Assembly (NCBI GenBank): GCA_009602725.1
Contig: WELB01000014.1
Location: forward strand, 744,788 to 794,007
Direction of reading: 5' to 3'
DNA length: 49,220 nt
Origin: Spirogloea muscicola
Taxonomy: Eukaryota; Streptophyta; Zygnematophyceae; Spirogloeales; Spirogloeaceae
Positions 9,650-48,765 of this stretch are shown piece by piece; the stretch's first letter is position 1; every line of letters begins with the position of its first letter. The translations under genes were made by a program, and so were the position numbers. The notes under the pieces were generated by a model that saw nothing but the letters and a program-made list of their open reading frames with translations, searched no databases and was not told where the DNA came from.

Positions 9650-10576
9650 GTGTGGTTTTGGCGCCTTTGGCACTATGGACCTTGTTCATTCTTTCTGGGC
9701 TGGCAATTCACAGCCCCCGCTCCCCTTATGAAAGGGAGCTCTTATGAAGAGCTCCCTTTCTTCCTCGGCCTCCCACCTAATTGCCTGATTGGGGTGCGCC
9801 AGTGCGAGTGCGGCTTCCGTGCAGAGGGTGCTGTGCTCGCCACTCACATGCTGAGATGCCCCACTGGATTAGAAGTGGTGGGCATTCACAACCTCCTTCG
9901 CGATGCCCTGGCGGGCTTGATGCGCGACGCCGGCTACCGTGCGGTCGTGGAAGTCAACAATATCATGCCTATCACCACGGACGCCCAGGGACGTCATCAT
10001 CGCCGCACACTTGACATTGTGGGCGTGCAACCTGGTGGAGGACCACGGGCCCTGGTCGACGTTGTTGTTACGGAGGCATATAAAGGCCCAGCATCAACAC
10101 ACATTGCTGGGCACGCAGTGGGCGGAGCAGAGCAAAGAAAACTGCGGCATTACTCCGATTACCCCCAATGCGATCAACTCCTGCCAGCTGCAATCGACAT
10201 CTTTGGCTGTCTGGGTCCTCGCTTCCACACTCTGCTTCAAAACGTTGCCAATCTAGGCTACACTCGACGCGCAGATGTGTTTCCGGCTGAGATGGGCTTG
10301 CCAGCTGCATATCTGTCGCTCTTGCGACGTCGGGTTTCGGCCTGTTTGCAGCGTGCTCAGGCTAGTGCCTTGCACCAGAAAGCTGGGCGAGCTCTAGTAG
10401 GTGGCAGAAGGGCTCCGTTCCTGGCATCTAGTATTCATGCATCGAGTAGTGACCTTTATGTTTTGACCCGTGGTTATTGAGCGGGTCAATCTGCTGTAGG
10501 TTATGTAGATTTTTAGATGTGCTTGCCTTTGTACCTGGCCATTTGGCCTACATTTCTTTCTAATACACGATCTCTC
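9608..10576 (+). mobile_element. Non-LTR retroelement tail with RLE-like C-terminal domain
   Basis: An open frame runs to a stop at 10480. Within it I see a zinc-knuckle-like CECG...H...C, then HNLLRDALAGLMRDAGY, a PD-(D/E)xK-like block (RRTLDIVGV, ALVDVVVTEAYK) and a C-terminal box ALHQKAGRAL with terminal YVLTRGY. CCHC plus PD-(D/E)xK is the layout of the restriction-like endonuclease of R2/CRE/Dualen-type non-LTR elements. There is no reverse transcriptase here, so the copy is 5'-truncated. The 3' UTR after the stop ends near TAATACACGATCTCTC. At the 5' side it carries the hairpin module (9680-9730). The family assignment is inferred from motif order only. Confidence 0.72.
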
Positions 10577-10586
10577 CTTTCTGATG

Positions 10587-10790
10587 CACCAGAAAGCTGG
10601 GCGAGCTCTGGTTGGTGGCAGAAGGGCTCCATTTCTGGCATCTAGTATTCATGCATCCATTAGTGACCTTTATGTTTTGACCCGTGGTTATTGAGCGGGT
10701 CAATCTGCTGTAGGTTATGTAGATCTTCAGATGTGCTTGCCTTTGTACCTGGCCATTTGGCATACATTAGTTTCTAATACACGGACTCCT
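10587..10790 (+). mobile_element. 5'-truncated second copy of the same retroelement
   Basis: This copy starts within the HQKAGRAL codons and runs through LTRGY and the 3' UTR. It is flanked by a perfect 10-base direct repeat, CTTTCTGATG (10577-10586 and 10791-10800), interpreted as the target-site duplication. It landed directly behind the 3' end of the longer copy. Confidence 0.85.
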
Positions 10791-10794
10791 CTTT

Positions 10795-10935
10795 CTGATG
10801 GCGTGCAGTGTGCATGAAATGAGAGGGAGGCCAAGCAAGCCAGTACAGTGTCCAAGTAGAACGAACGTGATGAAGAGGGAGCGAATGTGCGGGATGCGCA
10901 TGAAGTTAATGGAAGGCCAATCAAGCCAATGAAGC
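10795..10935 (-). repeat. GCGCGCCTTCTC-type module, two degenerate copies
   Basis: Two partial copies of the module read GGCGTGCAGTGTGCATGAAAT...GGGAGGCCAAGCAAGCC and GGGATGCGCATGAAGTTAATGG...CCAATCAAGCCAATG. Both are reverse-orientation versions of the module seen intact at 47360-47445. Confidence 0.6.
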
Positions 10936-11895
10936 TGCAAACGTCACGGCTGCATTAAGAGACTCACTGCACACTAAATTGCGCTTGCCAAACTGCGATG
11001 CCACGTGGTGCACATCTACTTGGAAATCTTACTAGTTGCCATCTTCCATGAGTTTGAGCAATGTGGGCGCCACTTCTGGACGTGCCAAAGCCACATTTGC
11101 ACCAGTTTGCAGGCCCCTAACTGAGGCGAGTGGGCAGGCACCACTGATAGCTCCCTGACATTGCCGTGCTTGCTCTACAAAAAGTGCGACAACTTCTACG
11201 GAACCTATGAAAGCATGCAGATTGCTTGTCACCAGAGACACTGCCACAATCAAGGTGACCTATTGGCCATGCCTGCTTGCCTGCTCATTCTGCTGTCAGC
11301 CACGACGATTGAGTACCTCAATCGCATGTATACTCAAGGATTGCCTTGTCAGTAAGCGGTGGTCCAAGCAGCATGAAGCACACCATTAAGCCGCTGCTCC
11401 AATCTTGCACAGGCCGTTTACTTCAAGCTTCAGAGAAGCTCATTTGACTTCGTCACTTTTAGGTGCTGAGGTCCCCTTCAGCTGTGTTTCGCCCTGTTTT
11501 GGCCCCTCTTTGCCTGGGCTTTGCTTTGTGTTGGACCGTTCTTTAGATCACTACTTCTTGCCGGAACAGTTCACTGACTCGTCTTGGCCCCACTTTCATG
11601 TCATGACCACTGCACGCCTTCTTCGACCCAACATATTAACACTTGAGTTGAGTTTCAGAGAAGGAGCAACATCTATGGATACCCAGCAACCATGGCATCG
11701 AGAAATAGTATAGGATCTCCTCCTCCTGCTGGATCTGTCAATGACAATAATGTTGAAATGAGCTTCGCTGCTGACATATGGCTTCCTATTTGGTAGTCTA
11801 CTAAAAGTTCGCCAGGTCTGCCATTTCTACTTGTCTAGTCAGCAAAAGCCAGAGGTAATGAGCAAAGTAGGCAAGATCAGCAGAAACAGGCAGTA
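10936..11895. other. Region without a recognised gene
   Basis: Only short unsupported frames occur. A minus-strand frame near 11032-11253 (reading ANVALARPEVAPTLLKLM) could be an exon, but nothing links it to a neighbour. Confidence 0.35.
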
Positions 11896-12015
11896 GGTGC
11901 TCTAGCACTCATAAAGTATCCAATGTAGTCCCAAATGCCGCTAATCAGAGAATGAGGTGCTCTAGCACTCATACAGTATCCAATATAGTCCCAAATGCAG
12001 CTAATCAGAGATGAA
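11896..12015. repeat. 60-base tandem duplication
   Basis: Units 11896-11955 and 11956-12015 are nearly identical (GTGCTCTAGCACTCAT start, CTAATCAGAGA end). The stop codon of the minus-strand gene at 12001 lies inside the second unit. Confidence 0.85.
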
Positions 12016-13960
12016 GCTGGCCAAGAGGAGGAGAGCAGCGAGAACAACCCATGGGCTTCTGAAGGCTTCCGGTATGCTAGACGTCATTGAATAACTGGCC
12101 CTCCTCTTTCTTGGCCAACCTCTACTGCTGGCCTGTTTCACGAGAAATTTTCTGAGAAGTTGATGGTCATTGATGTACTGCAGATGCCATATGCAGATGC
12201 ATGCCTCTGCTTCTAAGTGCAATCATGGCAAAGAGATGGCGACTGCAACAACATGCTCAACATGTCCCAATGAGACAAGAAACACCTTGAGGGTCGCCTT
12301 CTGATACGAAAGACTTGACCAACCATTTGGATAAATCATGTGATCTGCCCACCTGAACGAGAGCACACCATTGCTGAGTACAAGATGCATGCAGATTTCA
12401 GACTACTTGAAGGCAGTGGTGGCACCAAGACATCAGGTCGGCGGCCGTACTCTTCTTCACCGCTTGAAGAGCGAATTCCACAGTGCTCCAGACTTGATTC
12501 ATTTGGAAGCTAACCTCAGGAGCACAAGCATAAGCAGCTGGAGGTCCTTGTCAGCTGGCAGTCAAGGCTAGATTCACCTAAGCCAACTCATGCATAGCTA
12601 GCAGAGGGTCATGGAGCTCTGCATGGCCAGAGGCTTCATGCAGAGGACTGTACATATCCACCTCGACTCCGTTGAAAACAAGGGTTACGTTTGTAGTAGG
12701 GCCAGGAACAATGTGCGCAGATGTAAGCACCCGTGCTTTGAATTCCTCCACTGAATCAGATGCTCTTGCTCTGATTGGAAGCAACTGGAATAATTCTGCA
12801 CTGAAAGTTGAGCAATTGTCACACTGTTCAATCGTCCACCTAGACATAATATATGTGCAATCTTAGCCTGTGCAATATGCATGTCCAGAGAAGCTACCCA
12901 ACGTTGTAAGATGGCCTGGTAGTGATCCAGTCAGGAGCAGCTGTTGTCAATGTTCTCACCTGTCAGAGAACTTTATCAAGACCTCCAATTCAGGCAGCTC
13001 AGCCATAAGCCTCAATTCCAGCCCCAACTCCTGCTCTTGCTTGCTCTCTCTTGCATGCAACCTCCTCAGCTCTCTTCGGTCCAACTGTTACAAAGCCATT
13101 GACAAGTAAGTATGACCTCCTTGTCAAACATGTCGGCACAATGGTCATTTATCCATGGCTCGATAATCAGAAACCAGATTATAATAGAACTACCTGACTG
13201 ATTGCTTGCCCGTCTCAGCTAGTCGTGATCAGGGAGCAAGCGTGAGCTGCCGTAGCTTATGCTGTGTTGTTGGATCCTGGCCTCAAAAAATGAGAGTTTC
13301 AATCTCTGCACTTGCAAGAGCACAGAAGGTACTCAGAATTACAAGCGATTTAGCAGCTTTCACATGAATATGAACATGCAGAGACAAACCACGTCAAGCC
13401 TGTGCTCGAGTGGAACCAACGATCCCTGTGAGCGTGGAGGTCTCAAGGATGTCTTTGGGGAAATGGTAAGCCTTCTCTACACTACTAAAAGCATGAACAT
13501 AGTCCAAAGGACAGCTTGACCAGATGAAGAACCCTTGCCAGCTGTGAACTAGCTTGGCACGCTGAGAAATGTGAGCAGTATGACCTACTCCAAAAAGGTG
13601 AGAGACTGACCAGGGCAGGGCGCTGAACGTTAGCGCGGAGGTATGCCTGCTTGCTCGTGGGAAGTCGTACAACACCTGTGAGAGAAAGAGCAAATAATGC
13701 TGGCATTGGTCGACCTACACGTTGCTCCAAGGAAAGGGGACTCCAGCTCGCAGTGCTATCATCTCTGAGTAAGGCTGCCGCTCATGGAGGTTTTGGACGC
13801 CAGGCTCAGGGCCCTCGTCCTCACCGCTTGCGCAGGCTTTGAAGATCCTGGCGAGATCACTCTAAGGACGGACAAGCACGCCTGCAGCGCGCTCCGCAGG
13901 CCGGCCCACAGAGCGCAGGCTCGCGGGCGAGCCTGGCGTGCAGGCACAGTGAGCACGGAG
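12001..13960 (-). CDS. Unidentified tail-anchored protein gene (partial exon model)
   Basis: I do not recognise this gene. The best-supported exon is 12177-12001 (59 codons including TAG), preceded by a TCTGCAG acceptor. It ends in a basic stretch (RGWPRKRR) followed by a hydrophobic C-terminus, SPWVVLAALLLLASFISD, which looks like a tail anchor. Exon 13084-12960 reads as a charged, coiled-coil-like segment (RRELRRLHARESKQEQELG...LMAELPELEVLIKFSD) with good splice sites. Exon 13471-13421 (AYHFPKDILETSTLTGI) joins it in phase 0. Further candidate exons lie near 13672-13607 (VLYDFPRASRHTSALTF) and 13850-13750. The 12.2-12.9 kb part is unresolved; a frame with VEVDMYSPLHEASGHAEL may be an exon. 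The start is unknown. Confidence 0.45.
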
Positions 13961-14084
13961 CTGCTGGCATCAGCTCGTTATTACATCTGCGTTGTCCTAG
14001 CAACCTGCGATGCCTTCGGTCCATGGGTGTTACGGGGGTCGGTGGTCCTCGTTACTTTTGCTGCTGGCCTCTCAAGCTGACCAG

Positions 14085-14306
14085 CGGCGCCGGGAACAGG
14101 GTGCAGCCCTTCCCCGTGGCTCGGTGCCTTTAGGTCTTGTTTCCTGCTACCGAATGCGTTTATCTATGTGCCTACAGCGGTCCCAGGCGATTGCTTTGCA
14201 TCGCCGGGCTGGTCGCGCCCTTGAGCAGCCTCTGGTTTGCGCAGCGGGGTTGCTCTTCCTCCCCTCAGCTCATCTGACTTCCTACTGCTGACACGGGGGT
14301 ATTAAG
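14085..14306 (+). mobile_element. Truncated retroelement tail, second subfamily
   Basis: One frame reads LQRSQAIALHRRAGRALE. A neighbouring frame ends SSDFLLLTRGY then TAA at about 14304. The pieces match the conserved C-terminal RAGRAL and LTRGY boxes of the 9.6 kb element, with a frameshift between them, so this is a decayed copy. Confidence 0.65.
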
Positions 14307-14459
14307 GGCGCCCTGTCTGCCTAGCCTTTGGCTCCGTCATGAACACCTGTGTGCATCTGGCTGGCAGTTTACAGCCGATCTTAAATAGCAGCAGCCGTTA
14401 TCTTTAACTTCTCCAACCTTCCTCCCTACTTCAGATCTAACGCTACCCAAAGAAGAAAA

Positions 14460-14530
14460 GACGCTTCCAGGAGAGGGCAGTGGCTGTGAGAGGGCCAGCC
14501 CAGAAAAAGAATGAACAAAGTTCGAAGTAC
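14460..14530 (-). repeat. Hairpin module copy
   Basis: Contains GTGGCTGTGAGAGGGCCAGC followed by CCAGAAAAAGAATGAACAAAG. This is the reverse-strand form of the recurrent GTTCATTCTTTTTGGGCTGGC...CACAGCCAC module. Confidence 0.7.
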
Positions 14531-15569
14531 TTCTGGAGTAGCCGTATTCTAGCAAAATGACACAGCTAGACACACCACGACGCAACGGGAAACTCAGTAA
14601 CCACTGCCAAGCAGCCGCAAGTCGGAGTAACTGGCTTACCCAAGGACCGCCAGGGCCACAGCACAGAGATAACTTGTTCAAAGGAGTGACGTGCACCTCA
14701 AATATGTAATTCAAGACCTTCAGTGGCTCAATCATGACCTTTTAATTGTTGTGGTTGGTTTCTTGTGATTGTTTTGATTGGAGTGAAGTGCAAGGGCACC
14801 AGGGTTCTGAATATTGAATAAATTCATTCCAGCCAATCCCATCATTCAAGGTCATTGACTTTAACACTGCGCATGTATTGGTTACACTAACGTGCAGAGG
14901 GTCGCTACGATGTCCTCCTCCATGTACTAACATCTCTTCTTGACATCGATTGCAAGCCCAACGGCTCCTCAATCCTAGATCATGCTAAGACCGAACAGCA
15001 AAACACATGAATCACATTGTGTGCTTCCTACGGATATTTAGACCATATATCCACCCTCATCTCCTTGTGCTGCTAAGCACGAGAGAGCCTTGCAATGCAC
15101 GGAGGTACTGAAGGTTGTGCATACGTAATCATGCCAACATCATAGAATTCCGGACCTGTCATGAAACTCAGAATACTACTGTCGATCAACAATTTATGGC
15201 CATGCTTGTGGCTGAAGGGCAGATGCCAGCTGCTATGATCAAATTGCTGAAGGTTGATGACAATGACAAGAATGAGACAGTGACCAAAGCAACCGAAGGG
15301 CCTGATCCTCGCTCATTGCAATTCAAGCGCTCTGTGCAAACCATGCGTGGTCGCTGCCTCAAGATCCAAGTAGTCGTAAATGCCATGCCCTTTGCATGGT
15401 GACAGGAGCGATTCTGCTGGTGACTCAGGATTCATCGAACAAGCACAGCCTCAATTTCCCTGCCTTCAATGTCAAGGCCACCGCAAAGCAATAAGGTCCA
15501 GGGACAAGGCAGCGGCTTGGAGACACAAGGAGTCCCAGAGGTGGCCGGCCACTCAAGGAAGGAACCTTT

Positions 15570-15665
15570 CTAGCTGAGAAGAGAGATCGTGTATTAGAAA
15601 GAAATGTAGGCCAAATGGCCAGGTACAAAGGCAAGCACATCTAAAAATCTACTAGCTGAGAAGAG
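15570..15665 (-). mobile_element. 68-base 3' end fragment of the LTRGY retroelement with target-site duplication
   Basis: Bases 15584-15651 are the reverse complement of the extreme 3' UTR of the 9.6 kb element. They are flanked by perfect 14-base direct repeats, CTAGCTGAGAAGAG (15570-15583 and 15652-15665). This is a severely 5'-truncated insertion by target-primed reverse transcription. Confidence 0.9.
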
Positions 15666-15667
15666 GT

Positions 15668-15850
15668 GAAGGCGCGGGTTGCGCATGGGATGCAAAGAAG
15701 GCCAGATCAAGCCAATACACCGTTCAGGCAGAAGCTAGTCCAAAGAGAACAGCTATTCCATTTCAAGGCAGTGGCTGTGGAATGCCAGCCCATAGGAGGA
15801 AGGCGCCATGAAAGTAAAGGGAGGCCAATCCTACCCTTACAGATGTCATG
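15668..15850 (-). repeat. GCGCGCCTTCTC-type module and hairpin module copies
   Basis: AAGGCGCGGGTTGCGCATGG...CAAGCCAATACACCGTTCAGG is a reverse copy of the module. It is followed by GTGGCTGTGGAATGCCAGCC, a reverse hairpin module, and a second partial module near 15803-15835. Confidence 0.65.
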
Positions 15851-16554
15851 GTAATGTGGTAATGAGTTGGCTAAGGGGGGCACTATATCCTTGAGTGATC
15901 ATATACATATCTGACAAGCTAAGCTGAGGAGCCGCACCATCACCACGGAAGCCATTGGCCTGGCCTTAATGCACGCCCAGCACGCTGGTGTATCTCAAGT
16001 GCTTGGGAGCGCTGTAGACTCAATGATAGCCGCATTCTATAGCAGGCAACGATGGCTTGCGGGACGCTAGAATGCCCTATAAGCTACCCGCCCGACAACA
16101 GTCGGCGGGCATCGACTTGCTGTGCCAGGCAAAGCAGGAGGGAGGACCGCTTCGTTCCGTAGCCGCCGTATATGTCCATGGCGCATGGGAAGAGAGAAGG
16201 CGCGCGGGGCGCATGAATTGAAAAATGGGAAGAAGTGGTCGCCCCGGGGGTGGTCCTAATAATGTCGGTCCTTCTTCTCTTTCTGTTTAGTTTGCCCTAG
16301 ACTCTGCCTGAAAGGGTTTAGGGTTTAGGCTTGAATTGGCCTCCATTTCATTTCATGCGCCCCGCGCGCCTTCTCTCCGGATGATTTGTCGCCCAACCTG
16401 GCACAGTCGGCGTGGCTCCGGGGTGGTTGGAATGCGTCGATAAGAACGACGTCGAGGACAAGACGATGCCCACCGCTGCGGCGGGTAGCAACCACATCCA
16501 GACGCCTGATGTATGGTCTGTCACGCTTGAGGAGTACTGTCAGGATATTAGTGT
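15851..16554. repeat. Repeat-derived DNA with embedded telomere-like sequence
   Basis: Holds a reverse module fragment near 16195 (GGCGCGCGGGGCGCATGAATT) and a forward copy at 16290-16380. In the forward copy the usual ACAATGTATTG is replaced by two TTTAGGG units (16314-16328). No gene is recognised. Confidence 0.6.
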
Positions 16555-17185
16555 TTAAACCTTTTGGGCTGGCCTTTCCCAGCCACCAGTCAATCTGGCC
16601 GCGCTTTCTTAAACCTGCCTAGCGCACCATAGTGTTGTCAAAGTTCAAAGAATGGGGCGTCACAATGAGAAGACGCTCTTTCCAACGGGAAGATGGCTTT
16701 GAACGAATGCCAGCCCACTGCTAACGGGCAAAATGCAGTGGAGTCGCCACATGCATCCCGCATGTCAGGCCTCGCCTGGCCGACACGAGGGATGGACTGG
16801 ACAGGCTCACTCCAAAGCAGCGGCAGCGCTTCCCGGGCGGCGGGAGCAACAGAGGCGGGAGAGAGCTCAAGAAGGAGGCATCTTCCCAACAGGGGCGGGG
16901 GCTGTGAATGGCCAGCCCAGATGAAGAACAAACAAGGTCCAAAGCAACGAGCAGGATACGATCCTCCAACACGTCAGCAAGAGGCGCTCAATAACCTCCA
17001 GCGGGTCCCCACCGTCTATAGGCAGACGCCGCAGGGGGGACCGGCTGTGAAAAGCCAGCCCGAAGTGCATTGACAAGATCCGAAGGTGCCGGCAAGCCGC
17101 TGAAGGCAGTCATCGCCCTCTAATGGAAAATGTCCTCTCCGTGATGGGCCAGCCCAGAAAAGAAGGACGAGCCTAGTTCGAAGGG
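16555..17185. repeat. Cluster of five hairpin modules
   Basis: One forward copy lies at 16560-16610 (GGGCTGGCCTTTCCCAGCCA). Reverse copies lie near 16700, 16895-16945 (GGGGCTGTGAATGGCCAGCC), 17040-17062 and 17145-17180. Copies are spaced about 100-200 bases apart and are usually followed on their minus-strand 5' side by AACAAGGTCC-like sequence. Confidence 0.7.
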
Positions 17186-21250
<4,065 letters not shown>

Positions 21251-28527: not shown

Positions 28528-30570
28528 ATCCAAACGTGTCGAGCTGTTGGATGAACATGGAACCAGCAACTTCACAAACAAAAGCATCCTGTGAGGCTGT
28601 GTCCAGCAATAATTGCTCTCCAGTCCCACCCAGCAGCTGTTGCTTTCTTCTCTTTCGCTGAAAGGAAATGATCACATGCAAAGTAGATAATACAAGCTTC
28701 GGGCACTGACAGACAATGCTTGTCAGCATCTACATGGGCAATTTGGACATGGAGAGTTCAGGGCTTCTTGACATTCTGTTGCACCTGCTACCTGCAGTTG
28801 CTAAAGGCTGACGATTGTACATCACCAGAAGGTCTTAAGTGAGGGCTCCTGGAACTTCCTGCAGGCTGGCTTGTAGGCCTGGCCTGCCTTCGGGGGATTG
28901 GCATCAGAGAATTACAACAACGATAGAGGACTGACATCCAGTCAGCCACGCACTACGGATGCAATCCTTTGACGCACTTGCAAGCAGGACTTGGTATAAG
29001 CCTTTGGAGCTGCTGCATTGCAGATCGTGTCCACGAGGTTAGCAACAGGCTGGCCTGTTCATGCTGCTGCTTATGAGGCTTTCATAAACCATGTCACTCA
29101 ACGGAAGTAAGCCAGTCTGATGCGGGATGTGATGCATAGGTGTTATTGGACTCAGCAATATGCAATGTCTGTACTTTGTGGCTGGCTCTCTTTGATATTG
29201 ATTGGCTTGTGCAAGTTGAGCAGATTTGCATGCTGCCTGCTCATTGTCAGATTGCTCAACAATGCAGGGTGTCAATAAATGTCAAAGAAAGGCGTGGAAG
29301 ATATTGGCTGTGTCTATCAATATTATTATGGAGGAGCTAGACACGCTTGATACATGTTCTTGAGCCTCCAGCTTGATATGCCATGATGAAACACTGCATG
29401 ATTTTCCTGATGGCCAAATCTGCGGTTGTTTCCCCTTAGTTTACTTAAGGTCACAGCTTGCTAGTGTCATTTGTACTATGAATGTACCAAGACAATCATG
29501 AAGCACTCCTGCTGCTTCCATACATTTGTTTGCTTACTACATGTAACCATGTTGCTAAAAGTATCGTGCTACTTTGACTTGACAGAAGTACTGATGCCAT
29601 TTGTACAGAGGAGGGCATGTTATCAGCACTCGAATGAAGTCAATGGTTCACAACAGATAAAGCGATGCAAGTGCAAGTCCATGGTGCGAGCTCTACATTG
29701 TTTACTCTGAGGGATAGGGGGATACATTCTTTCTGATGAGCCCCAACTGCAGCTGCCGCTGTCCCAAATGTGTCCGCTCTGGACTTTCTCAGCCACCATC
29801 CTTTTGGAAGAGCGCTTACTATATAAGGCTTGTTCCTGAGATGAAGCGTGGATGTCCTTCTGATTTAGACTGTCGGGAGGAGGGGATCAGCCTGCAGGCA
29901 AGACTCCTGTTGTTGCATCCACAGGGTAATTGGACCCACCTTGGATGCTTACCTGATCAACGCACAGGACAACATTGCAAGGATCCAGCATCGTGAGATG
30001 CAGCCATGGTGAAGGGTGTCCCCAGTCACTACACACATTGGAGGGCAGGCAATGTCCAGCTCTACTTGGCAGCAATGATCCGGTTAATCTACTGATGTTG
30101 CTGGTGAGAAGGCATCTTCGGGAGAAGACTTGACCATACAATGCTTGTGTTGACCAGCTTAGTGGCCAAACAAGGTGAGGGGAGCAGATCACCATACTGA
30201 TCTTTAGCTTGGATGGACACACAGAACACCTCTTTTTACTATGACTCGAAGTATTTGTCTTGCTGACAAATCTTGTTACGCTGACAGTGAAGGGCGGCAG
30301 GGGGCCAGCAGGTCGCCTTGGACTGCAATCTGATTACCATACTTGATACTAGAAGGAGAACATTCGAGTGCACATTTTCTGGCAGCCCTTGTCATCAAGT
30401 TTGTGAGGGATCGTTCAAGAAGCTACATCTGCGGGCAATAATTGTGAGAGGCAGCCCAATTGTCGGGGATAGGACAGCACTGTCAGCAGATTCCAGCGAA
30501 CATTGGAGACAGTGCTGTGGACCATAGCTTAGTGAAAATTTTAAGTGGTTTTGCCTGGCTGGAGCTAATG
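28528..30570. other. Gene-poor stretch
   Basis: About 2 kb of AT-richer DNA after the methyltransferase. Short frames are present but none shows family motifs or plausible splice chains, and I see no clear copy of the repeat modules. Confidence 0.4.
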
Positions 30571-30574
30571 CTCT

Positions 30575-31045
30575 CCCGAAGAGGAGGCGGTGGCTGGGGA
30601 ATGGCAGCCCAGAGGAGTGGGCAACGTCGGGGGGGGGGAAGCCCCAATACGATTTCAGATTGCTTAGCAAAGGGAGAGAGGCTCTTCATACACCAGCGTG
30701 CTGGGCGTGCATTAGCCCAGGCTAACGGCTCCGGGGTGGTGGTTTGGCTCCTCAATTTGACTTGTCAGATATACATGTGCTCACTCGGGGATATCTAGTG
30801 TCCCCCTTAGCCAGCTCCTTACCCAGTTAACAGGACTCCGAAAGGAGAGAAGGAAAAGGAGGCGAAAAGGAGCTAGTGGCTGTGGAATGCCAGCGCAGCA
30901 GGGTGGACGACAGTCTAGGGGTAGCCCCAACGTCAGTCACGCGGTAACACAGAACAGCTCTTCCATGGCAAAGGCAGTGAGAGGCCAGCCCAAAGAGAAG
31001 GCGCGCGGTGCGCATGAAATTGAAAGGGAGGCCACTTCTAGCCTT
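30575..31045. repeat. Repeat island: hairpin modules and retroelement tail
   Basis: Reverse hairpin copies lie near 30586-30612 (GGTGGCTGGGGAATGGCAGC), 30873-30893 and 30970-30990. The 30655-30800 part encodes HQRAGRAL, then in another frame LSDIHVLTRGYL, which is the conserved C-terminus of the LTRGY retroelements (third subfamily). A reverse GCGCGCCTTCTC module lies at 30995-31035. Confidence 0.7.
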
Positions 31046-31178: not shown

Positions 31179-31330
31179 CCGTCCATGCATCGAGTAGTGA
31201 CCTTTATGTTTTGACCCGTGGTTATTGAGCGGGTCAATCTGCTGTAGGTTATATAGATTTTTAGATGTGCTTGCCTTTGTACCTGGCCATTTGGCCTACA
31301 TTTCTTTCTAATACACGATCTCTCCGTCCA
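31179..31330 (+). mobile_element. 5'-truncated LTRGY retroelement 3' end with target-site duplication
   Basis: Bases 31186-31323 match the C-terminal codons (VLTRGY) and 3' UTR of the 9.6 kb element almost exactly. CCGTCCA flanks both sides (31179-31185 and 31324-31330). Confidence 0.8.
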
Positions 31331-31560
31331 GCACGGCCTCTGGCTCTGGCCAGGGGAACCACTTCCAGGAGCCTAGCATCTCTGATCTGCGGCTGCTTAG
31401 CAGGGGTTACTGACTGATTCGTAGCTGCTATATTGCTTCATGTGCTTGTTTCTCATTAGCGCTTCCCCTGGCCCCCTTCTCGTACTCTGTTCATTCATTT
31501 TTGGGCTGGCTGCTCCAGCCCCTATCCTCAATGGGCAAGCACTTTCTTCCGAAAGGGCGT
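31331..31560 (+). repeat. Composite repeat: GGGGTTACTGA module then hairpin module
   Basis: GCGGCTGCTTAGCAGGGGTTACTGA... is followed by TTCATTCATTTTTGGGCTGGC-TGCT-CCAGCCCC. The same order is seen at 46375-46490, 47120-47165 and, in part, 45375-45500. The 31340-31375 part is the uninterrupted version of the site broken by an insertion at 45.9 kb. Confidence 0.7.
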
Positions 31561-35154: not shown

Positions 35155-35330
35155 CAGTTGCTAGCTACTCAGACTCGCATCTCCTGACTAGAGGTTACTG
35201 AGCGTTCCCTGGCTGATGTCTAAGTCCCAGCCCTTGGCACTCCGGCTCCTTCAGACCTTGTCCAGTCCTTTGGGCTGCTGGCCTTTCCCAGCCACCAGTC
35301 AGTCTGGCCGCGCTTCCTAGTAGTTGCCCT
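35155..35330 (+). repeat. GGTTACTGA module plus hairpin module
   Basis: TAGCTACTCAGACTCGCATC...CTAGAGGTTACTGAGCG, then GGCCTTTCCCAGCCACCAGT and CTGGCCGCGCTT. The same pair recurs at 46983-47110. Confidence 0.75.
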
Positions 35331-35612
35331 TCGACCAGGTCCGACGATCGCTCTGATTGGCGGGCTGGCCGCCGTCACGTGGTCATGGCGTGGCCGGCAG
35401 TGGCGACACGTGTCCTGTGGCGGCGGGGGCTGCTGCGACCCAGAGCTCCTTGGCCCGGCAGTAAAGAGTCGGCGGGAAAGAGAGACTGTTAGCACTAACG
35501 ATCACACTTAGATATACACCTCGATGTGACGTGCGGCTTGTGCTCCTCGACACTGTCACGTTACTTGTCGAGGGGCCGCGTGATGGGTTACCGACTCGTT
35601 GCGCTTTAGCTG

Positions 35613-38600: not shown

Positions 38601-39477
38601 CCTGGCAAGATAAGCGACCAGCTCACCTACTAAAGTGGGTGAAAGTGGCGCCATTTGTGTATCTCCGTGTACCGTCGTCCATGTGTGACAAGAGATTGTC
38701 TTGTACTAAGCAGCTTGTGCAGCCAAAAGGAAAGAACGGGACGAATGGTGCCATGAGCGAGGCATGCCACCTGGCCAAGGCAGCGCTTTTGATGGTCACA
38801 AACAACATTGGCAGTATAGCAATGCTTCACGCCAAGTCTGCAGGAGTGAGATTTATCCTATTTGCTGGGAGCTTCCTCTACAGCAATAAGGTAAGATCCA
38901 GCTCTGCTAGAGCTACTTAAGCGATTGACGTCTCTTGTCAGTTGCATCATGCTAGCATGCGCCTCTCAAACTCACCATGAGCTTGCCGCAGCAGCCACTC
39001 TGGTGCTAGCACTAGACCACAAGTTTGCCATTTGAGATGTTGGGTATGGGAGATTTCGATAGTGACCGGGGTGCTTGTTGACACTGAGTTGGTGTTTGGT
39101 TTGTGCAGTTGGCAATGAGGCTGCTTGCTGTGGCCGTTGAATTCTGGTCCAAGGGCAGCATGAAGGTACCGCCACCATCTTGTGCATCTTGCACCTATAG
39201 ATCTGCTGATGTAAGCTAAAACGCGACTTCAAGTGCACATATTACGACGTTCAGTAGCTCTGCGCCAACTTGATGTGGTTCTACTAGATGTCAATAACCA
39301 CAAGGCGCAATCTTCCAAGCTATGTACCCGTCCCACTCTTTTCTACAGGCTGTCTTTATGAGGCACGAAGCCCATGCTGGAGCTGTGGGGGCCTTGCTGG
39401 GCGTCCTTGATGGATCTGCGCTTTCTGATGATGCGTCAGAGAAAGTAAATCAAGGGCCTTGTAGAAGCGATTGCTGA
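35613..39477 (+). CDS. PANK: Pantothenate kinase, eukaryotic type II (about 13 exons)
   Basis: Phosphorylates pantothenate, the first step of CoA synthesis. Proposed exons: 35613-35627 (MDHRE, followed by GTAAGT), about 35709-36138, 36309-36390, 36651-36728, 36924-36988, 37162-37391, 37644-37729, 37910-37951, 38046-38137, 38341-38399, 38723-38890, 39109-39165, 39349-39477. From exon 3 on the phases are exact. Seen: phosphate-binding GLDIGGTLCKLVYLEP, ETWRIEEFLE, GATGGGARKYGP, VNIGSGVSILRV, FSTSFDEAIDLASHGD, MLVGDIYGGDYPEMGL and HEAHAGAVGALLG. Insertions of Gly/Ala and acidic residues occur in exons 2 and 6. The product ends after the kinase domain, without the C-terminal DUF89 domain fused in plant PANK2. 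The first exon and the exon 2 acceptor are uncertain because of the GGC run. Confidence 0.9.
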
Positions 39478-39902
39478 TAGCCTTCACTTCACAATTGCAA
39501 GGGGCAAGTTGTCCAGTTCAAAATCCCACTTCGTAGCACTACTTAATTGCTGCCGACCACTAAGACTTTAGTACGAGCTCTAGCTGAGCTACACCGAGAT
39601 ACAACAATCATCATCAAAGTGGTCATCTAATTGCACAACAAGTAAGTCATCCCCCCAAGCAGGCCAAGCACAACATGATCGTCTTGGCTGATGTGATAAG
39701 TTGCTGGCTATTTGAAAATATACACTGGTGTTTAACAGTGTCTAAGTAGAAGGCTGAAACATGGATACGTGCCAGACTAAAAGTAGGCACAATGAGAAAG
39801 AGTGTCAAGGCTTCAAGAATCAGAATTTACAAGACAGAGCGATAATCAGTCCAGATAAACGGATGGCATCAGATTGCCGTAAATTGCTTTGTGCAGGTCA
39901 CC
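39478..39902. other. Convergent spacer PanK / FtsHi3-like
   Basis: About 425 AT-rich bases between the two stop codons. It has no room or frame for an M41 protease domain and no recognised element. Confidence 0.5.
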
Positions 39903-42650: not shown

Positions 42651-42692
42651 CACGGCCACGCCGCCGGCGCCGCCGCCGCCGCCGCGGGCGCC

Positions 42693-43527
42693 ATGGACGC
42701 CGCGAAGGTGGCGCAGCTGCGGCAGTTCGTGACGCTGTGCCAGGCGTCGCCCGCCGTGCTCGCCTCGCCCAACCTGCGCTTCTTCCGCGACTACCTCGAA
42801 GCGTGCGCCGCCTCCTCTGACCCCGGCCTCCGCAGCCTGGCCGCCAGTCCGGCTGCGCCAGCTCCCTTAGCACGGCTATGTAGTGGCTGCCGCCGCCTCG
42901 CCCCGCCTCTAGCCTTTCCTTAGCTGCTGAGCGCAGTGGCACAAGCCTGCCTGACTGTGACACTCAAGTCCCGCCTCTGCTCCCATACCCCTCAAGCGAG
43001 CTGCAAATTAGTTGCTGCTTGTTACACTGTGGACTTGCCGTGCCGGCTCCGTCTCGGTCCTCCGTGACGCAAATGGCGGCATATCTGACGGACTGAGCTG
43101 GCCGCGCTGGCGTGCGGCAGGCTGGGGGCGAAGCTTCCGGCGGAGGCTTATGGCTCGGTGAGCGCCTCTTGCTGCCCCTGCTTCACGGCAGGCTGCCATG
43201 GCCATACGAAGCCGTTCTGGCCACTTTTGGCACTGATTAGTAGCCCTGTCCTGAGACGAGACTAGGCGGAGCCCTTTGAGACTCCTGTATACCTATTCCA
43301 TGGCGCTCGCTGAGAATTCCGAGTGCTGCTGTGGGCATTCACAGGAGCCAGAGAGTGATGCAGGGGGGGCAGCTCAAGAGCCGCGGCACCACGAGCACGC
43401 GAGGGAAGAGTCAGCCGTTCCCGTGGAGGAGGAGGAGCAGCAGGAGGAGAAGGACGAGGGCTTGCCACCAGAGCCAGAGCTTGACATGGAGTCGGTTGTA
43501 GAGCCTGACGAGGAGCCTTCGCAGAAG
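42693..43527 (+). CDS. ST13: Hip/ST13-type Hsp70-interacting protein, 5' exons only
   Basis: Exon 1 starts at 42693 in a GCGCCATGG context and reads MDAAKVAQLRQFVTLCQASP... FFRDYLE, the Hip N-terminal dimerisation domain. The exon ends near 42800, possibly at a GC donor. Exon 2, 43345-43527, follows an ACAG acceptor and is acidic (EEEEQQEEKDEGLPPEPEL, SVVEPDEEPSQK), matching the acidic linker of Hip, and ends at a GTGCAG donor. The TPR repeats and the STI1 domain that should follow are not found in the remaining 5.7 kb, which is full of transposon fragments and has an N at 43655. So the gene has a very long intron, is broken, or the assembly is misjoined. Confidence 0.72.
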
Positions 43528-43654
43528 GTGCAGCCAGAACTGAAGCGCTGGACAGTGACGGCAGGGCACATTGGAAACATCTTTGCCGAAGTTGGAAATG
43601 CACATGTCTGCTCCCGACTCAGTAGCTGTGCTGCTGTGCGGCGGCTACAATCCA

Positions 43655-43655
43655 C
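43655..43655. other. Single ambiguous base at a composition break
   Basis: A lone N lies between the Hip intron and a GCGGC-rich run leading into repeats; a similar lone N is at 17682. Either may mark a consensus or join problem. Confidence 0.6.
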
Positions 43656-43799
43656 NGGCGCGGCGGCTGCTGCGGCGCCGGCCGCGGCGGGAGTTCCGGC
43701 GCGGGCCGCGGCGGCGATCGCGGGGGCGACCTTAAACCCCAAATCCCCTCCAAGCCCTTCGCTGGCGCGGCCGCTACTGTCGACGTGGCGCGGCCGTTA

Positions 43800-44235
43800 G
43801 GCAACGTGGCGCGGCCGTTAGGCACCGTTGTTCGAGTGGGAAGACGCATCCAGTAGTGGGCGATGGCTGCGAGTGGCCAGCCCCAGTAAGGAACGAAAGG
43901 GACGCCCGAGATCCGACACGTACTGGGAGCTGAGGGCGAAGGCGCGCATGAGATTCAATGAAGGCGGAAACGAGCCAGTCCACTGTTTGCAAAAACTTGA
44001 AACGAAGAGCTCTTCCAAATTGACAGCAGTGGCTGTGTGAGAGGCCAGCCCGAAGAAATCGACAAGGTGATCGACCAAAGAGATCATCTGTGAGCGGCTG
44101 AGAGACTGAGAGTAAGCTCTTCCAGAGAAGGAAAGTGGCTCGTCCAGGGGGGCGAGGGCCGTGAGAAGAAGAAGAAGCAGCTCTTTCCAATGGGGCGAGG
44201 GTCTGGGCAAGCCAACCCACAAAAGACTGCACAAG
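43800..44235 (-). repeat. Cluster of reverse hairpin modules
   Basis: A tandem 19-base unit (CAACGTGGCGCGGCCGTTAGG) occurs twice around 43783-43822. Hairpin copies follow near 43868-43890, 44028-44055 (GTGGCTGTGTGAGAGGCCAG) and 44185-44225. A short GCGCGC module remnant lies at 43938-43965. Confidence 0.6.
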
Positions 44236-44329
44236 GTCCACAGGAGCCAGAAAGAGTGTGTGAGAGGCCTGAAGAGTGGACAAGATCCCAAGGGGCCGGA
44301 AAGCGAGACTTCTGCGCCTGCCATGCGCC

Positions 44330-44565
44330 GGGCGTTCTTGGCTCCTTAGCCCTGGGGCATCGCACGCGCCTCTCCATCTCCCTGCAGCGTTGCCTGACTT
44401 GCACAGTGCATCTGCGTGCTGGCCGTGCCCTGGCTGCAGCCTCGGATTATAGGCGAGGTGACTTTGTTCCTCATCTCTACAACTGCTTTTCTCTCCGACT
44501 TGCGGCTGCTGAGTTGGGGTTGTTCAACGGGCTCAACATAGTGGTCACTTGCCCTGAGTAGTATA
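44330..44565 (+). mobile_element. Retroelement tail, decayed (fourth subfamily)
   Basis: A frame reads VHLRAGRALAAAS, matching the RAGRAL box. The downstream LTRGY is not preserved. It is followed by CTTGCGGCTGCTGAGTTGGG, the start of the GGGGTTACTGA-type module. Confidence 0.5.
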
Positions 44566-44574
44566 TTCATCTGT

Positions 44575-45100
44575 TCCGATCCCTCATAATCTTGTTCGTT
44601 ATCTTTGGGCTGGCCTTCACAGTCATGGCCCAATATGCAAGGGCTTTCCTTGAGCGGGCCCTGTGTGCCCATTTAAGGGTGGTCGTCAACGAGAATACCG
44701 CACAGCTTTGTGAGGCAGTTGCCGAAATAATCTTGACCTCGCAAGTCGCTGCATCGGTGTTGCAAATGTTGTCTGGCTGCTGTTTCTTCTTCTTGCGGCT
44801 ATTTACTAACTGCTGGGCACCCAATGTGGTAGCCACATTGAAATTGCGTGGTTCGCTCTTTTGGCCCCAACGAATATTGTTCAATCCTATTGGGCCCCAT
44901 TCTGAAGGAAGCTTCTTCTGTCCATTGTTTTGGGCTGGCATCTCACAGCCACCAGTCACTTTGGAAGCGCTGTTGTTTTCTTCTGTCAATTCGACATTTG
45001 GGCTTTGTTGTCGATGTAGCCCTCCGGCCCGTTCGGACCTTGTTCATTCTCTTTTTGGCTGGCTTTACACAGCCCTCGCACCCTTCGGAGGCGCTTGATC
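44575..45100 (+). repeat. Three forward hairpin modules
   Basis: Copies lie at about 44590-44630 (GGGCTGGCCTTCACAGTCAT), 44925-44960 (GGGCTGGCATCTCACAGCCA) and 45040-45080 (TTGGCTGGCTTTACACAGCC). Each is preceded by a TTGTTC-type stretch. Confidence 0.7.
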
Positions 45101-45109
45101 TCGTTTGGG

Positions 45110-45420
45110 CTGGTCTCTCGCGGGCATGCCTCCCTTTGAACCAGCAGCCGCTCTCTCTTTCTTTCAAGGGCGTTCTGCGTTCCCAGGCTCTAGCCACTTA
45201 TCAGCGTGCTGAGCGCGCACTAAGGCAGGCCACTGGCTTGCGTCGTGATGCTCAGGCGCCCCAGATAAGTCTGGCAGGTATGTATGTGCTCACTCGTAAG
45301 TACTACAATCCCCCTTCACTTGCGTTTCCGATTTGTTAAATTGCTCAACCGAAGACTAGTTTCTCTGACCTGCGGCTGCTCTAGGGGGGATTCAGCACGC
45401 AGTGGCCACTTGAGTCGCTG
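45110..45420 (+). mobile_element. Retroelement tail, fifth subfamily
   Basis: One open frame reads SQALATYQRAERALRQATG, then ISLAGMYVLTRKYY and a stop at about 45337. This is the RAGRAL/LTRGY C-terminus in diverged form. CTGCGGCTGCT of the next module follows. Confidence 0.65.
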
Positions 45421-45439
45421 TGTGCTTTTGCACTCATGT

Positions 45440-45805
45440 GGGCCTAACGAATTTTGTACATACTCTTCTGGGCTGGCCAATCACAGCAATCGCCCTTTAC
45501 TGGAAGAGTTTTTCTTGTTGGTCCTGTTAGACCCTTTGATTGTCCTTCTTACTCCAGATTACTGTCGGATTCGTGTATGCTCTATTCGTTGTTACTGGTG
45601 TACACACTGTTACCTTAGCCACCTTAGCATAGGGCTTCGTTTCACTCAGCCCCACTTGTAGCACTAGCTTTTGCTTGAACAGTGTATTGGCTTGAGTTGG
45701 CCTGCCTTGCGATTGTTGCGCACCGCGCGCCTTCTCCCTACACAATGTACTGGCTTGCTTGGCCTCCCTTTCATGTCATACGCACCGCGCGTCTTTCCCG
45801 GCAGC
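45440..45805 (+). repeat. Hairpin module followed by two GCGCGCCTTCTC modules
   Basis: GGGCTGGCCAATCACAGCAA is at about 45470. A long module copy spans 45605-45740 (CACCGCGCGCCTTCTCCC), and a second, starting again at ACAATGTACTGGCTTG, reaches 45800. Confidence 0.7.
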
Positions 45806-45925
45806 TGTCTCGCGGAGGGACATGCTCACGTAGCCCCACTGTTGCTTGCAGCCTCGTCCGCTGCGCCCGCCCTCCTGTTGCTTCTGGCTGTTGCCTCTGG
45901 CTCTGGCCAGGGGAATTCCGTTTAT

Positions 45926-46355
45926 TAGAAACTAATGTAGGCCAAATGGCCAAGTACAAAGGCAAGCACATCTAAAGATCTACATAACCTACAGCAGATT
46001 GACCCGCTCAATAACCACGTGTTAAAACATGAAGGTCACTATTCGATGCATGAATACCAGATGCCAGAAACGGAGCCCTTCTGCCACCAACTAGAGCTCG
46101 CCCGGCTTTCTGGTGCAAGGCACTAGCCTGAGCACGCTGCAAACAGGCCGAAACTCGTCGTTGCAAGAGCGACAGATATGGAGCTGGCAAGCCCATCTTA
46201 GCCGGAAACACATCTGCACGTCGAGTGTAGCCTAGATTGGCAATGTTTTGAAGGAGAGTGTGGAAATAGGACCCAAACAGCCAAAGATGTCCATTGCCGC
46301 TGGCAGGAGCTGATTGCATTGGGGATAATCGGAGTAGTGCCGCAGTTTCCTTTGT
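45926..46355 (-). mobile_element. LTRGY retroelement copy inserted in another repeat
   Basis: The minus-strand frame 46319-46008 gives LLQNIANLGYTRRADVFPAKMG, HQKAGRALVGGRRAPF and LHVLTRGY. It is a close relative of the 9.6 kb copy, truncated at the 5' side around the RKLRHYSDYPQC codons. Its flanks, GGCTCTGGCCAGGGGAA and CCGCTTCCAGGAGCC, are contiguous at 31345-31375, the empty site. Confidence 0.85.
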
Positions 46356-46374
46356 TAGGAGACCCGCTTCCAGG

Positions 46375-46725
46375 AGCCCAGTCTCTCTGACCTGAGGCTG
46401 CTAAGCAGGGGTTACTGAGTGCTTCGTAGCTGCTTAGATTCGCTTTGTGCTTGTTTTGCTTAGTGCTTCGCCTGGCCCCTTCTTGAAGGGAAAGGTAGTG
46501 CAAACCTTGGAGCTACCTAAAGCGAAGCTTAACGCTAAGTGGGGCTAAGGAATCAGGGCAAGGGCTGGGTTGGAGGAGAAGCTTTGATACCCACAAGCGA
46601 GCAAGAGAGAAGCTCCTCAAGCTCTTCAAGCTCTTCAACGTGAGAGAAGGCGCAGCGGGGCGCATGAATTGAAAGGGAGGCCAATTCAAGCCAATACATT
46701 GTTCAGGCAGAGTCGAGTGCAGACT
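46375..46725. repeat. GGGGTTACTGA module and reverse GCGCGCCTTCTC module
   Basis: 46390-46490 matches 31378-31480 over about 100 bases. 46645-46720 is a reverse module (GGGCGCATGAATTGAAAGGG, CCAATACATTGTTCAGGCAG). Confidence 0.7.
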
Positions 46726-46979
46726 AAACAATGCTACATAATACGGAGACCTAATCTAAGGTACCTAAGATGACATTAGTACCCAACGTGAGGCAATGAC
46801 TGTGAGAGGGCCCCGGGCAGCAGGGCGAGCAGCCCGGCTTCAACGTCGCCGGGTCCCTCGCTCAAGTCTTCCGAATGCGTTTGGGCCATCTCGATGCAGC
46901 GGTCCCTTGCCTTCGCGGTTCACTTGCGCGCAGGCCGAGCTTTGGCGGCGGCCTCCGGCTTCAGGGCGACGTCTTTCCG

Positions 46980-47345
46980 CCGGCTAGCTACTCAGACTTG
47001 CATCTCCTAACTAGAGGTTACTGAGCGGCCTTCGCACTCCGGCTCCTCCAGACCTTGTCCATTCCTTTTGGCTGGCCTTTCCCAGCCACCAGTCAATCTG
47101 GCCGCGCTTTCTTTCGAGAGGCCAGCCTTGGGATGCGGTTGCTTAGCAGGGGTTACTGAGTGCTTCTTCGGCCTCCGGCTTTCGGGGCGAAAGCAGGAAG
47201 TGCGGCCAGATTGACTGGTGGCTGGGAAAGGCCAGCCCAAAGGAATGGACGTGGCGGCGCTCCCCAAGTTAGCTTGTCAGATTTGTTTGCGCTCACCCGT
47301 GAATATTTATGTCAATTTAGGCACCTTAGTTTAGGTCTCCATATT
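46980..47345. repeat. Inverted pair of hairpin modules around a retroelement tail remnant
   Basis: A forward copy at 47055-47110 and a reverse copy at 47200-47255 share TTTCCCAGCCACCAGTCAAT and its complement, so the segment can fold on itself. 47270-47310 encodes LSDLFALTREYL, another LTRGY-type end. Confidence 0.7.
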
Positions 47346-47349
47346 ATGT

Positions 47350-47570
47350 AGCCTTGTTTAGGTTGCACTAAACTCTGCCTGAACAATGTATTGGCTTGAA
47401 TTGGCCTCCATTTCATTTCATGCGCCCTGCGCGCCTTCTCTCTTCGTAGCTACTTGTTTCCCTGTATGCTTTAGCGCTGTCCTTGGCCTCTTCAAACTTT
47501 GTTCATTCTTTTCCCTGGCCTGGCCTCTTCCAGCCACCGCCCTCTCCTTGAAGCGTCTGCCTTGTTGGAG
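47350..47570 (+). repeat. Best-preserved GCGCGCCTTCTC module and a hairpin module
   Basis: 47360-47445 runs CTCTGCCTGAACAATGTATT, GGCTTGAATTGGCC, TTTCATGCGCCCTGCGCGCC, TTCTCTC. A hairpin module with CTCTTCCAGCCACCGCCC follows at 47510-47545. Confidence 0.7.
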
Positions 47571-48028
47571 TGGACAAGGGGTAGCAGATACTCCTGACGG
47601 GACCATCTTTGTCCTTGAGAACTTGGACGTTGTCCGGCCCTCTATTGGGATGGCCTCTCACATCCATCGCCCAGTTTAGAAGGGCTTCCCTTTTCGGGAG
47701 CTTCGTCGTGTCGCTCGACAAGTGGGCAGATCATGGCACCTTTCCGGCGTGTCCAAAGCGGTCCCCACGTCGTTCGTCGTGTGGGGTGCAGATGCTTACC
47801 CGAGTGGGTGCTTGGCAGGCAAGACGAAGCAGCTTCTTTGCAAGGGGAAGGCCTGCGGAGGAGCTGGCGGGGCCACCCGCAGGCAAGTGGCTGCTGGGTC
47901 AGGACCCAAATGTACAATGTACAATAACAGTACATCCGAAAGGGAACGATACTTTGACAGTGAGAAGATGGGCGGTGCGCATGAATCAAAGGGTGGCTAA
48001 TTCATTGTTCATGACAGACAGAAGTAAG

Positions 48029-48120
48029 ATGAAGCAGCTCTTTCCACAGCGAGGGCTGTGGAAATCTTCCACAGCGAGGGCTGTGGAAAGCCAGCCCACA
48101 AAAGAACGAACAAGGTCAGA
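48029..48120 (-). repeat. Hairpin module with internal tandem duplication
   Basis: A 22-base unit, itself an inverted repeat (TTCCACAGC...GCTGTGGAA), occurs twice (48043-48064 and 48068-48089). It is followed by GCCAGCCCACAAAAGAACGA and AACAAGGTC. Confidence 0.75.
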
Positions 48121-48684
48121 ATCGTTTGTTCATTCTTCGTTTCGCAGTGTGAGGCAAGGTCCAAAGGAGCCGCGAAAATTGTGCAGACAGCCAGACGTGA
48201 AAAGCCAGCTCACAAAAGATAAGATCAGGGGGTGGGTCGGACCGTTGCCGAGAGCAAGGAGGGCACTTGTGCAGGGCCAGCGCCAACGACTGACACCCTC
48301 CCCACGTGGCACGACCGGGGTCGCCTTGTGATTCTCCCCTGGCGGAGGGGGGTGGGACCCCCGCCCGGGCCCAGCCGTAGTGGGCGTCAGCAAGTGACGT
48401 GGTGACGAACGTTCGGTGACGTTCACCTGCACGTGGCGGTCCCTACCGGGCCGTACCGTTCCTGTGCTCCTGTGAGGTGGGGGTTGGGGGAAGGTGCTGG
48501 GCCCGCCATGGACGCCTCCGGAGCCCAGAGATCATTTCATATACTACTAGTCCAGAATATATCCTTCCTCTGTGTGCATTCTTACAATGTCATACTGTGA
48601 CACGTTTTCAAGTACTGAATGACGTGTGTGGAGTGCTCGGCGCGGCGCCAACCGAGCGAGCCCAGCCTCTGCCCTGCGCTTCGG

Positions 48685-48765
48685 AAATAAGACTCTTCCA
48701 GTAGAGGGCGGTGGCTTTGATTGGGCGAGCCCAGGAAAAAAAATGGAGAGAGTTCGAAGGGGACA
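48685..48765 (-). repeat. Hairpin module copy, right-most
   Basis: Contains AGGGCGGTGGCTTTGATTGG then GCGAGCCCAGGAAAAAAAAT and a GAGAGAGTTCGAAG tail, the reverse form of the module. Confidence 0.6.

Follow-up and report, generated by a model that had tools for sequence, protein, structure and literature searches.

A dispersed hairpin in Spirogloea muscicola DNA is very probably the 3′ tail of several sister families of R2-like LINEs

This study concerns a short hairpin module that recurs in a 49,220-nucleotide (nt) stretch of the Spirogloea muscicola genome (contig WELB01000014.1, positions 744,788 to 794,007; the whole stretch is called the window). A first-pass annotation of the window had listed 25 copies in both orientations and proposed selection on their structure, for example as a reverse transcriptase (RT) recognition site carried by several element families. 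Our data indicate that the module is very probably the 3′-terminal segment, about 60 nt long, of several sister families of R2-like long interspersed nuclear elements (LINEs), and that it looks free-standing because many copies are so short that little beyond this handle was copied. The copies in the window are mostly decayed 5′-truncated insertions or fragments rather than functional sites, and they derive from several families, not one, the hairpin being what those families share.

The position of the module behind LINE coding sequence was observed in two kinds of sample. In several of 20 genome regions fetched around exact 19-mers, an open reading frame (ORF) ending in SDLRLLSRGY and a stop codon, or a variant of it, is followed by a short 3′ untranslated region (UTR) and then by the hairpin. 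Loci were also chosen blind to the hairpin, by protein similarity to ORF ends, with both queries taken from hairpin-bearing loci (L017 and L031); at first look, protein searches with the A and B ORF ends gave 14,692 and 16,840 candidates, respectively, as rough counts, of which 150 each were scored, and the B and D test loci were our own picks among the 150 scored matches per search (the letters A, B, C, D, F, G, and K are our labels for the tails). All 19 near-identical young B copies (L036-L054) carried the tail downstream of the stop, one of them (L052) with an intervening insertion, as did 17 of 20 more diverged B copies, mostly 60-100 nt past the stop. The distance was about 26 nt in L062 and had been enlarged by nested insertions in L068 and L074, and the three diverged copies without the tail were L056, L064, and L067. 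Among 20 copies of family D, whose ORF ends in SDLHLLTRGY and a stop, the tail was present in 15 and partly present in one; L157, L171, and L172 were masked by N, and L167 had no tail. As the module thus lies downstream of the stop in both B and D copies, it is identified as a LINE 3′ tail, and the 3′ end of several retroelement families is the place expected for an RT recognition site, which upholds that part of the earlier proposal.

The tails differ among the families. Tail B reads GGGCTGGCTTTTCCAGCCC-CTATCCTCAATGGGCGAGC, tail G GGGCTGGCTTTGCCAGCCC-CTCTTCTCTATGGGCGAGC, tail C GGGCTGGCTTCTCACAGCCC-TTGCCCCCATTGGGAGAGCC, tail D GGGCTGGCCTTTCCCAGCCA-CCAGTCAATCTGGCCGCGC, and tail K, a composite, GGGCTGGCCTCTCACAGCCA-CCGCCCTCTCCTGGAAGCG. 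The end of family A is unlike these, being CTGGCCATTTGGCCTACATTTCTTTCTAATACACGAT or a slight variant of it in the 8 loci that were read out of 12, and its hairpin, of distinct sequence, occupies the same 3′ position. Tail C stands behind the ORF end SDVRLLTRDY plus stop in L031, as read by eye, and tail K stands behind an ORF-end remnant at 14.6 kb of the window, both in fragments. Only for tails A, B, and D could a long-frame element be assigned, and our confidence is high rather than higher because such elements tie the hairpin to B and D only, A having its own hairpin. Two further places (G000:C2:215802 and C2:245590) combine a C-like upstream part and 3′ end with a weakly folding CTGA...TCAG hairpin, possibly belonging to an arm-changed family.

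The dispersion of the module was evaluated with a covariance model (R1) of 21 tails and 16 pairs, which includes the window copies at 9.69, 14.48, and 45.06 kb, so that these three match by construction and the E-values are rough. R1 gave 26 matches at E<=10 on both strands of the window, in agreement with the reported occurrence in both orientations, and recovered 24 of the 25 listed positions, 21 of them at E<=0.0061. The weak ones lie at 15.78 kb (E 0.013, hairpin part only), 30.88 kb (0.024), and 16.70 kb (0.25). The remaining listed copy, at 17.15 kb, lacks the right arm and any R1 match, although 17146-17183 matches the window's 14.5-kb tail by blastn. Conversely, a clear copy had been overlooked at 47629-47691 (E=5.7e-5), and a match at 14359 (E 0.52) is too weak to count. 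Chance is excluded for the 19-mer, since 2 window matches with up to 3 mismatches were found against 0.01 expected and the exact 19-mer occurs 133 times in the genome of 153 Mb, where the reversed pattern never occurs. With anchors placed outside the hairpin, a gapped tail pattern matched 4,905 times and a tail C pattern 1,408 times in the genome, each against 0 in reversed controls and with some places counted twice; the exact 3′ anchor of tail B matched 1,975 times against 0 in the control, and a poorly chosen pattern for tail D found just 5 places. The tails and LINE pieces of the window are as follows (strand in brackets; E-values are those of R1; identities are to the family references).

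9681-9741 (+), LINE 3′ tail with hairpin; 61.4 bits, E 7.4e-13; in the model
9759-10574 (+), 5′-truncated LINE of family A with the ORF end LYVLTRGY-stop and its own 3′ end with a GGCC-ATTT-GGCC hairpin; 99.5% to nt 3221-4036 of the 4036-nt L034 reference
10585-10783 (+), second, shorter family A 3′ end in tandem; 94% to A 3833-4031
14455-14519 (-), tail K, E 3.2e-12, in the model, with an ORF-end remnant at 14582-14627, 83% to the B ORF end
15583-15652 (-), family A 3′ tail, 70 nt; 100% to A 3967-4036
15765-15791 (-), decayed tail, hairpin part only; E 0.013
16550-16610 (+), family D tail; E 7.8e-9; 90% to D
16669-16732 (-), weak, decayed tail; E 0.25
16874-16936 (-), tail; E 7.3e-8
17020-17077 (-), C-like tail; E 0.0011; 83% to the C tail
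17146-17183 (-), tail fragment without right arm; 82% to the K reference (the window's own 14.5-kb copy); no R1 match
30564-30625 (-), tail; E 2.9e-4
30852-30911 (-), weak tail; E 0.024
30951-31000 (-), tail adjoining a family F tail (30997-31043); E 0.0054
31184-31322 (+), family A 3′ end, 139 nt; 99.3% identity
31336-31549 (+), family B 3′ end with the ORF end SDLRLLSRGY-stop, 3′ UTR, and hairpin tail (31486-31546); 87% to B 3976-4176; E 3.6e-13
35161-35315 (+), family D ORF end, UTR, and tail (35257-35319); 72% to D 4193-4352; E 4.7e-7
43840-43899 (-), tail; E 0.0061
44004-44066 (-), tail; E 8.1e-6
44174-44235 (-), tail; E 6.1e-6
44591-44648 (+), tail; E 2.0e-6; decayed ORF end SDLRLL upstream at about 44.5 kb, by eye
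44917-44976 (+), D-like tail; E 9.1e-9; 82% to D
45039-45100 (+), tail; E 1.7e-12; in the model
45453-45514 (+), tail after a decayed ORF end SDLRLL, by eye; E 8.7e-7
45919-46354 (-), family A 3′ end, 436 nt; 93% identity
46357-46483 (+), family B ORF end and UTR without a tail match; 77% to B 3992-4107
46646-46745 (-), family F tail; 98% to the L167 insert
46815-47110 (+), family D 3′ end with the ORF end SDLHLLTRGY-stop and hairpin tail (47054-47113); 72% to D 4021-4353; E 3.1e-10
47196-47253 (-), family D tail; E 1.1e-7; 87% to D
47342-47438 (+), family F tail; 93% to the L167 insert
47498-47561 (+), K-like tail; E 1.4e-6; 87% to the window's 14.5-kb copy
47629-47691 (+), the overlooked tail; E 5.7e-5
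48061-48114 (-), tail; E 1.7e-6
48687-48751 (-), K-like tail; E 0.0038; 83% to the window's 14.5-kb copy

The class of the LINEs was deduced from four long frames, measured from stop to stop as 1,267 (L033) and 1,313 (L034) codons for A, 1,350 (L035) for B, and 1,410 (L155) for D; these frames may begin with flanking sequence, as L035 does. The B and D proteins are 64% identical, and B and A 41-42%. The Pfam family RVT_1 was found in all four frames (E 1e-14 to 1e-18), and a profile comparison with the sequences of the Protein Data Bank (PDB), made without a tree, placed R2 first at 7.6e-14 and L1 ORF2 at 0.003, so that the RT is closer to R2 than to L1. In the C-terminal part, a CxC...H...C motif followed by D...DVV-type residues is invariant in all four frames. 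L2 and L1 LINEs are APE-type, and no APE domain family was among the Pfam hits of the four frames. The element is therefore a probable R2-like LINE with a putative restriction-like endonuclease, the latter assigned with little confidence. Those traits of LINEs, which are non-long-terminal-repeat elements, that were tested were found, namely an ORF with RT, 5′-truncated copies with a common 3′ end, and target-site duplications (TSDs) of variable length. Site-specific insertion into 28S ribosomal DNA, the trait of R2 proper, was not observed, as the flanks vary by copy (8 A loci and 85 B copies), and there was no Rfam match to rRNA in the window, which carries A, B, and D pieces, in a scan that did not extend to the fetched loci.

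The manner of insertion was read mainly in tail B, for which the first 85 of at least 100 listed places of the exact 3′ anchor, in listed order and from 80 regions, were all analyzed; this anchor favors young copies. Fewer than 100 nt of upstream sequence were kept in 47 of the 85 copies and at least 145 nt in 31, and the breakpoints over the first 90 nt numbered 7, 7, 3, 12, 8, and 8 per 15 nt. TSDs of 8-13 nt were found around 9 of the 51 copies truncated within 120 nt, compared with a mean of 0.88 and a maximum of 5 in 300 shuffles, under a rule that required a direct repeat of at least 8 nt around the copy and dropped pure-pyrimidine words; this controlled count supersedes an earlier one of 22/51, which had included pyrimidine words and lacked a control. 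Outside this set, L167 contains, as read by eye, a 100-nt F-tail insertion in a D-family ORF copy with a 13-nt duplication (TCTCTTTGCAGCG), and L052 contains, at about 257-336 and just upstream of a B tail, an A tail of 80 nt whose 5′ part is inverted and which is flanked by a 9-nt duplication (CCTGGCCCC). At the 3′ junction, the base after CACTTTCTT is C in 81 of the 85 copies and the next is T in 67, the excess then fading towards background, which fits a CTT-type 3′ end meeting a pyrimidine target.

Older tails can themselves be hit or adjoined by new insertions: in the A and B copies L179-L181, L184, and L186, the sequence flanking the 5′ end is another tail as read by eye. Among downstream flanks, 12 of 85 contain the tail motif, compared with 101 of 2000 pieces taken at random from the window, a difference that is no more than suggestive because the control comes from one window. 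In L035, a module at the 5′ end of the LINE B element had been considered part of it and was rejected as an older tail that the element had hit; the flanks of L178-L180 differ. Side observations on nesting include an antisense D tail inserted within a D-family ORF copy with an 8-nt duplication (L168) and insertions of about 35-40 nt starting at or just past a hairpin's 3′ arm (L043 and L068).

Comparison of the B and D consensus sequences, in one pairwise alignment, showed that the box and hairpin are the best-conserved piece of the 3′ end (31/39, 79%), ahead of the coding end (24/34, 71%), the sequence after the hairpin (10/19, 53%), and the UTR before the box (32/69, 46%), which favors the recognition-site reading. 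This pattern fits what a handle read by a protein would give, and it is also compatible with a reading of the sequence itself without structure. The other argument of the first-pass annotation, selection on RNA or DNA structure inferred from pairing kept even where both arms change, found no support in the representatives. The arms that it compared, GGGCTGG/CCAGCCC and GGGCTG/CAGCCC, differ in the loop and the closing pair, and in the 21 representative tails 120 of 500 shuffles attained the covariation score and 149 of 500 the number of two-sided cells. In a set of 139 distinct rows fitted with the model, only 8 of 500 shuffles attained the score, and a two-sided change was seen in one of the seven hairpin pairs (in one cell); this set was discounted, as its rows are kin to one another and had been aligned by fitting to the structure. 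Covariation was consequently rejected as a proof of structure, there being no compensatory excess in the representatives. What that annotation had named as fatal to its idea, a lack of significant covariation or copies that are drifted fragments of one element, came true in half: covariation is not significant and the copies are mostly decayed fragments, but of several families. An outer stem in which CYTTGTYCAT pairs with AUGGGCGAG was also rejected despite its strength in B and G, with -5.24 kcal/mol for own arms against -5.29 for swapped arms over seven families.

Taken as the best reading, in which we place high confidence, the module is a stringent-type 3′ tail for target-primed reverse transcription; the tails show both a conserved 3′-terminal stem-loop common to related LINEs and a CTT-type pyrimidine end. 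After the ORF stop, the transcript would end in a loosely conserved UTR that usually measures about 50-100 nt, the CYTTGTYCATTC box, a U-run, and the GGGCUGG-loop-CAGCC hairpin, followed by about 20 nt of family-specific sequence and CUU-type pyrimidines. The element protein may bind this hairpin tail and then nick the target, target-primed reverse transcription would begin at the pyrimidine end, and its frequent early ending would leave many insertions with the tail and little more. We infer the binding by analogy with stringent-type LINEs such as ZfL2, and we also infer the order of the steps.

A further idea, which we regard as rather doubtful, is that a single RNA handle has stayed interchangeable among several diverged R2-like families, namely B and D and, to judge from the tails, also C, G, K, and others. 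If so, the enzyme of any active family could copy the tails of the others, giving a community of shared recognition instead of one enzyme for one tail, and the insertions across the genome, many of them tail-only, would be by-products of that LINE community.

Several observations weigh against the interpretation as a stringent-type tail of an R2-like LINE. No stem pair of the 21 representatives shows changes on both sides, and as the stem is nearly invariant, covariation cannot support it, and the structure is unproven apart from the sequence. In the arm swap of the outer stem, 53% of 5,040 permutations were as good as the own arms, and fold z-scores are strong only in B (-2.9) and G (-4.7), lying between -0.4 and -1.7 in C, D, K, A, and F. 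Early hints that the hairpin causes truncation did not hold in the 85 copies, whose breakpoints show no peak at the hairpin; in a few copies, a second tail immediately upstream makes the truncation length less certain, and 42 of the 51 truncated copies have no TSD of at least 8 nt under the rule used. On the protein side, the zinc-finger-like motifs readable near the N-terminus fall under the Pfam cut-off, the C-terminal part alone had no match among PDB sequences, and its predicted model is of low confidence (mean predicted local distance difference test score of 48), the top three Foldseek matches being R2 structures at E 0.011-0.020.

One alternative is that the tail copies are LINE fragments with a functionless hairpin, whose common sequence stems from descent and recombination between families. 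The missing covariation in the representatives and the decay of most window copies agree with it, and with B and D proteins 64% identical some 3′ similarity is expected by descent; however, the 79% identity of box and hairpin exceeds that of both the flanking UTR (46% and 53%) and the coding end (71%), and family A, at only 41-42% protein identity, likewise ends in a G+C hairpin, so that we consider this explanation unlikely. That many copies measure only 60-150 nt could instead suggest short interspersed nuclear elements (SINEs) with a LINE-like tail, mobilized by the LINE enzyme, and SINE/LINE tail pairs have been described in Chlamydomonas (PMC3747384). Yet the 5′ ends of the 85 tail B copies are spread with none fixed, the longer copies have LINE UTR upstream, and ARAGORN found no tRNA-like sequence in the window (Pol III boxes were not searched, and the sample of 5′ ends was of tail B only), which makes a SINE origin very improbable. 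A dispersed host element of regulatory or structural DNA or RNA, for example a small RNA source or a protein-binding site, would account for the high copy number, the occurrence on both strands, and the conserved stem, but it is hardly credible given a position fixed to LINE 3′ ends, the presence of TSDs, and the absence of any Rfam match in the window at gathering scores.

The case of a LINE tail combines known traits of LINEs. Like R2 and the non-site-specific R2-like LINEs, the elements have a single long ORF with N-terminal zinc-finger-like motifs, an RT, a C-terminal CCHC-like motif, and a putative nuclease, and they leave 5′-truncated copies; R2 is the best solved relative by profile. 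Unlike R2, they have many distinct flanks and a pyrimidine CTT-type 3′ end, and the likeness is one of sequence profile, with R2, NeSL, R4, HERO, CRE, and Utopia as candidate clades. R2-like elements with a random genome distribution are described in a cockroach (PMC7650587), and LINEs of the restriction-like endonuclease type are mostly target-specific, with many non-specific ones in HERO (PMC4640811).

A conserved 3′-terminal stem-loop or shared tail is also found in UnaL2, ZfL2-1 and ZfL2-2, a monocot L1 lineage, and the L1 and RandI tails of Chlamydomonas, where it is interpreted as the site that the RT recognizes (PMC4176376 and PMC3747384). According to these sources, the stem-loop of ZfL2 LINEs is required and protein-bound (PMC4176376), 3′ stem-loops are conserved in the monocot L1 lineage, and Chlamydomonas LINEs and SINEs have tails in common (PMC3747384). 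Those elements belong to the L2, L1, and RandI clades, whereas the RT here is R2-like, and compensatory changes are reported for the monocot L1 stem (PMC3747384), whereas the stem sequence here is nearly fixed. Nested and 5′-truncated insertion resembles that of the Zepp LINEs of green algae, for which runs mostly of 3′ ends are described (PMC8226300); Zepp, however, is of the L1 clade and clustered at centromeres, while the window tails lie among genes and their RT is R2-like. No paper describing this LINE group was recognized among the open-access papers listed, which is not a claim of absence in print, and the available part of the streptophyte genome paper PMC7027972 contains nothing on LINEs.

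A striking dispersed hairpin is thereby explained as the recognition end of a LINE group. The sister R2-like families, with near-identical hairpins and different downstream sequence, offer a natural series for studying how R2-type enzymes read their template. They also call for caution, because tail-only LINE insertions of some tens of nt can mimic an independent RNA family.

Minor observations concern other repeats and genes. A second repeated hairpin, CATCTGGCTGGCAGTTTACAGCCGATC with variants and different flanks, occurs at 14356-14400 of the window and in L013, L014, and L074, and is perhaps the tail of a further family. An array at G000:C353:50324-58510 consists of 10 copies of a LINE ORF-end fragment with a period of 882 bp, apparently a satellite built from a LINE 3′ part. 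Within the window, a run of N lies within open frames at about 27.2-27.9 kb, an open frame at about 18487-18753 matches glycosyl hydrolase family 14 (beta-amylase), and a TTTAGGG-type repeat tract on the minus strand at about 770-796 suggests plant-type telomere sequence.

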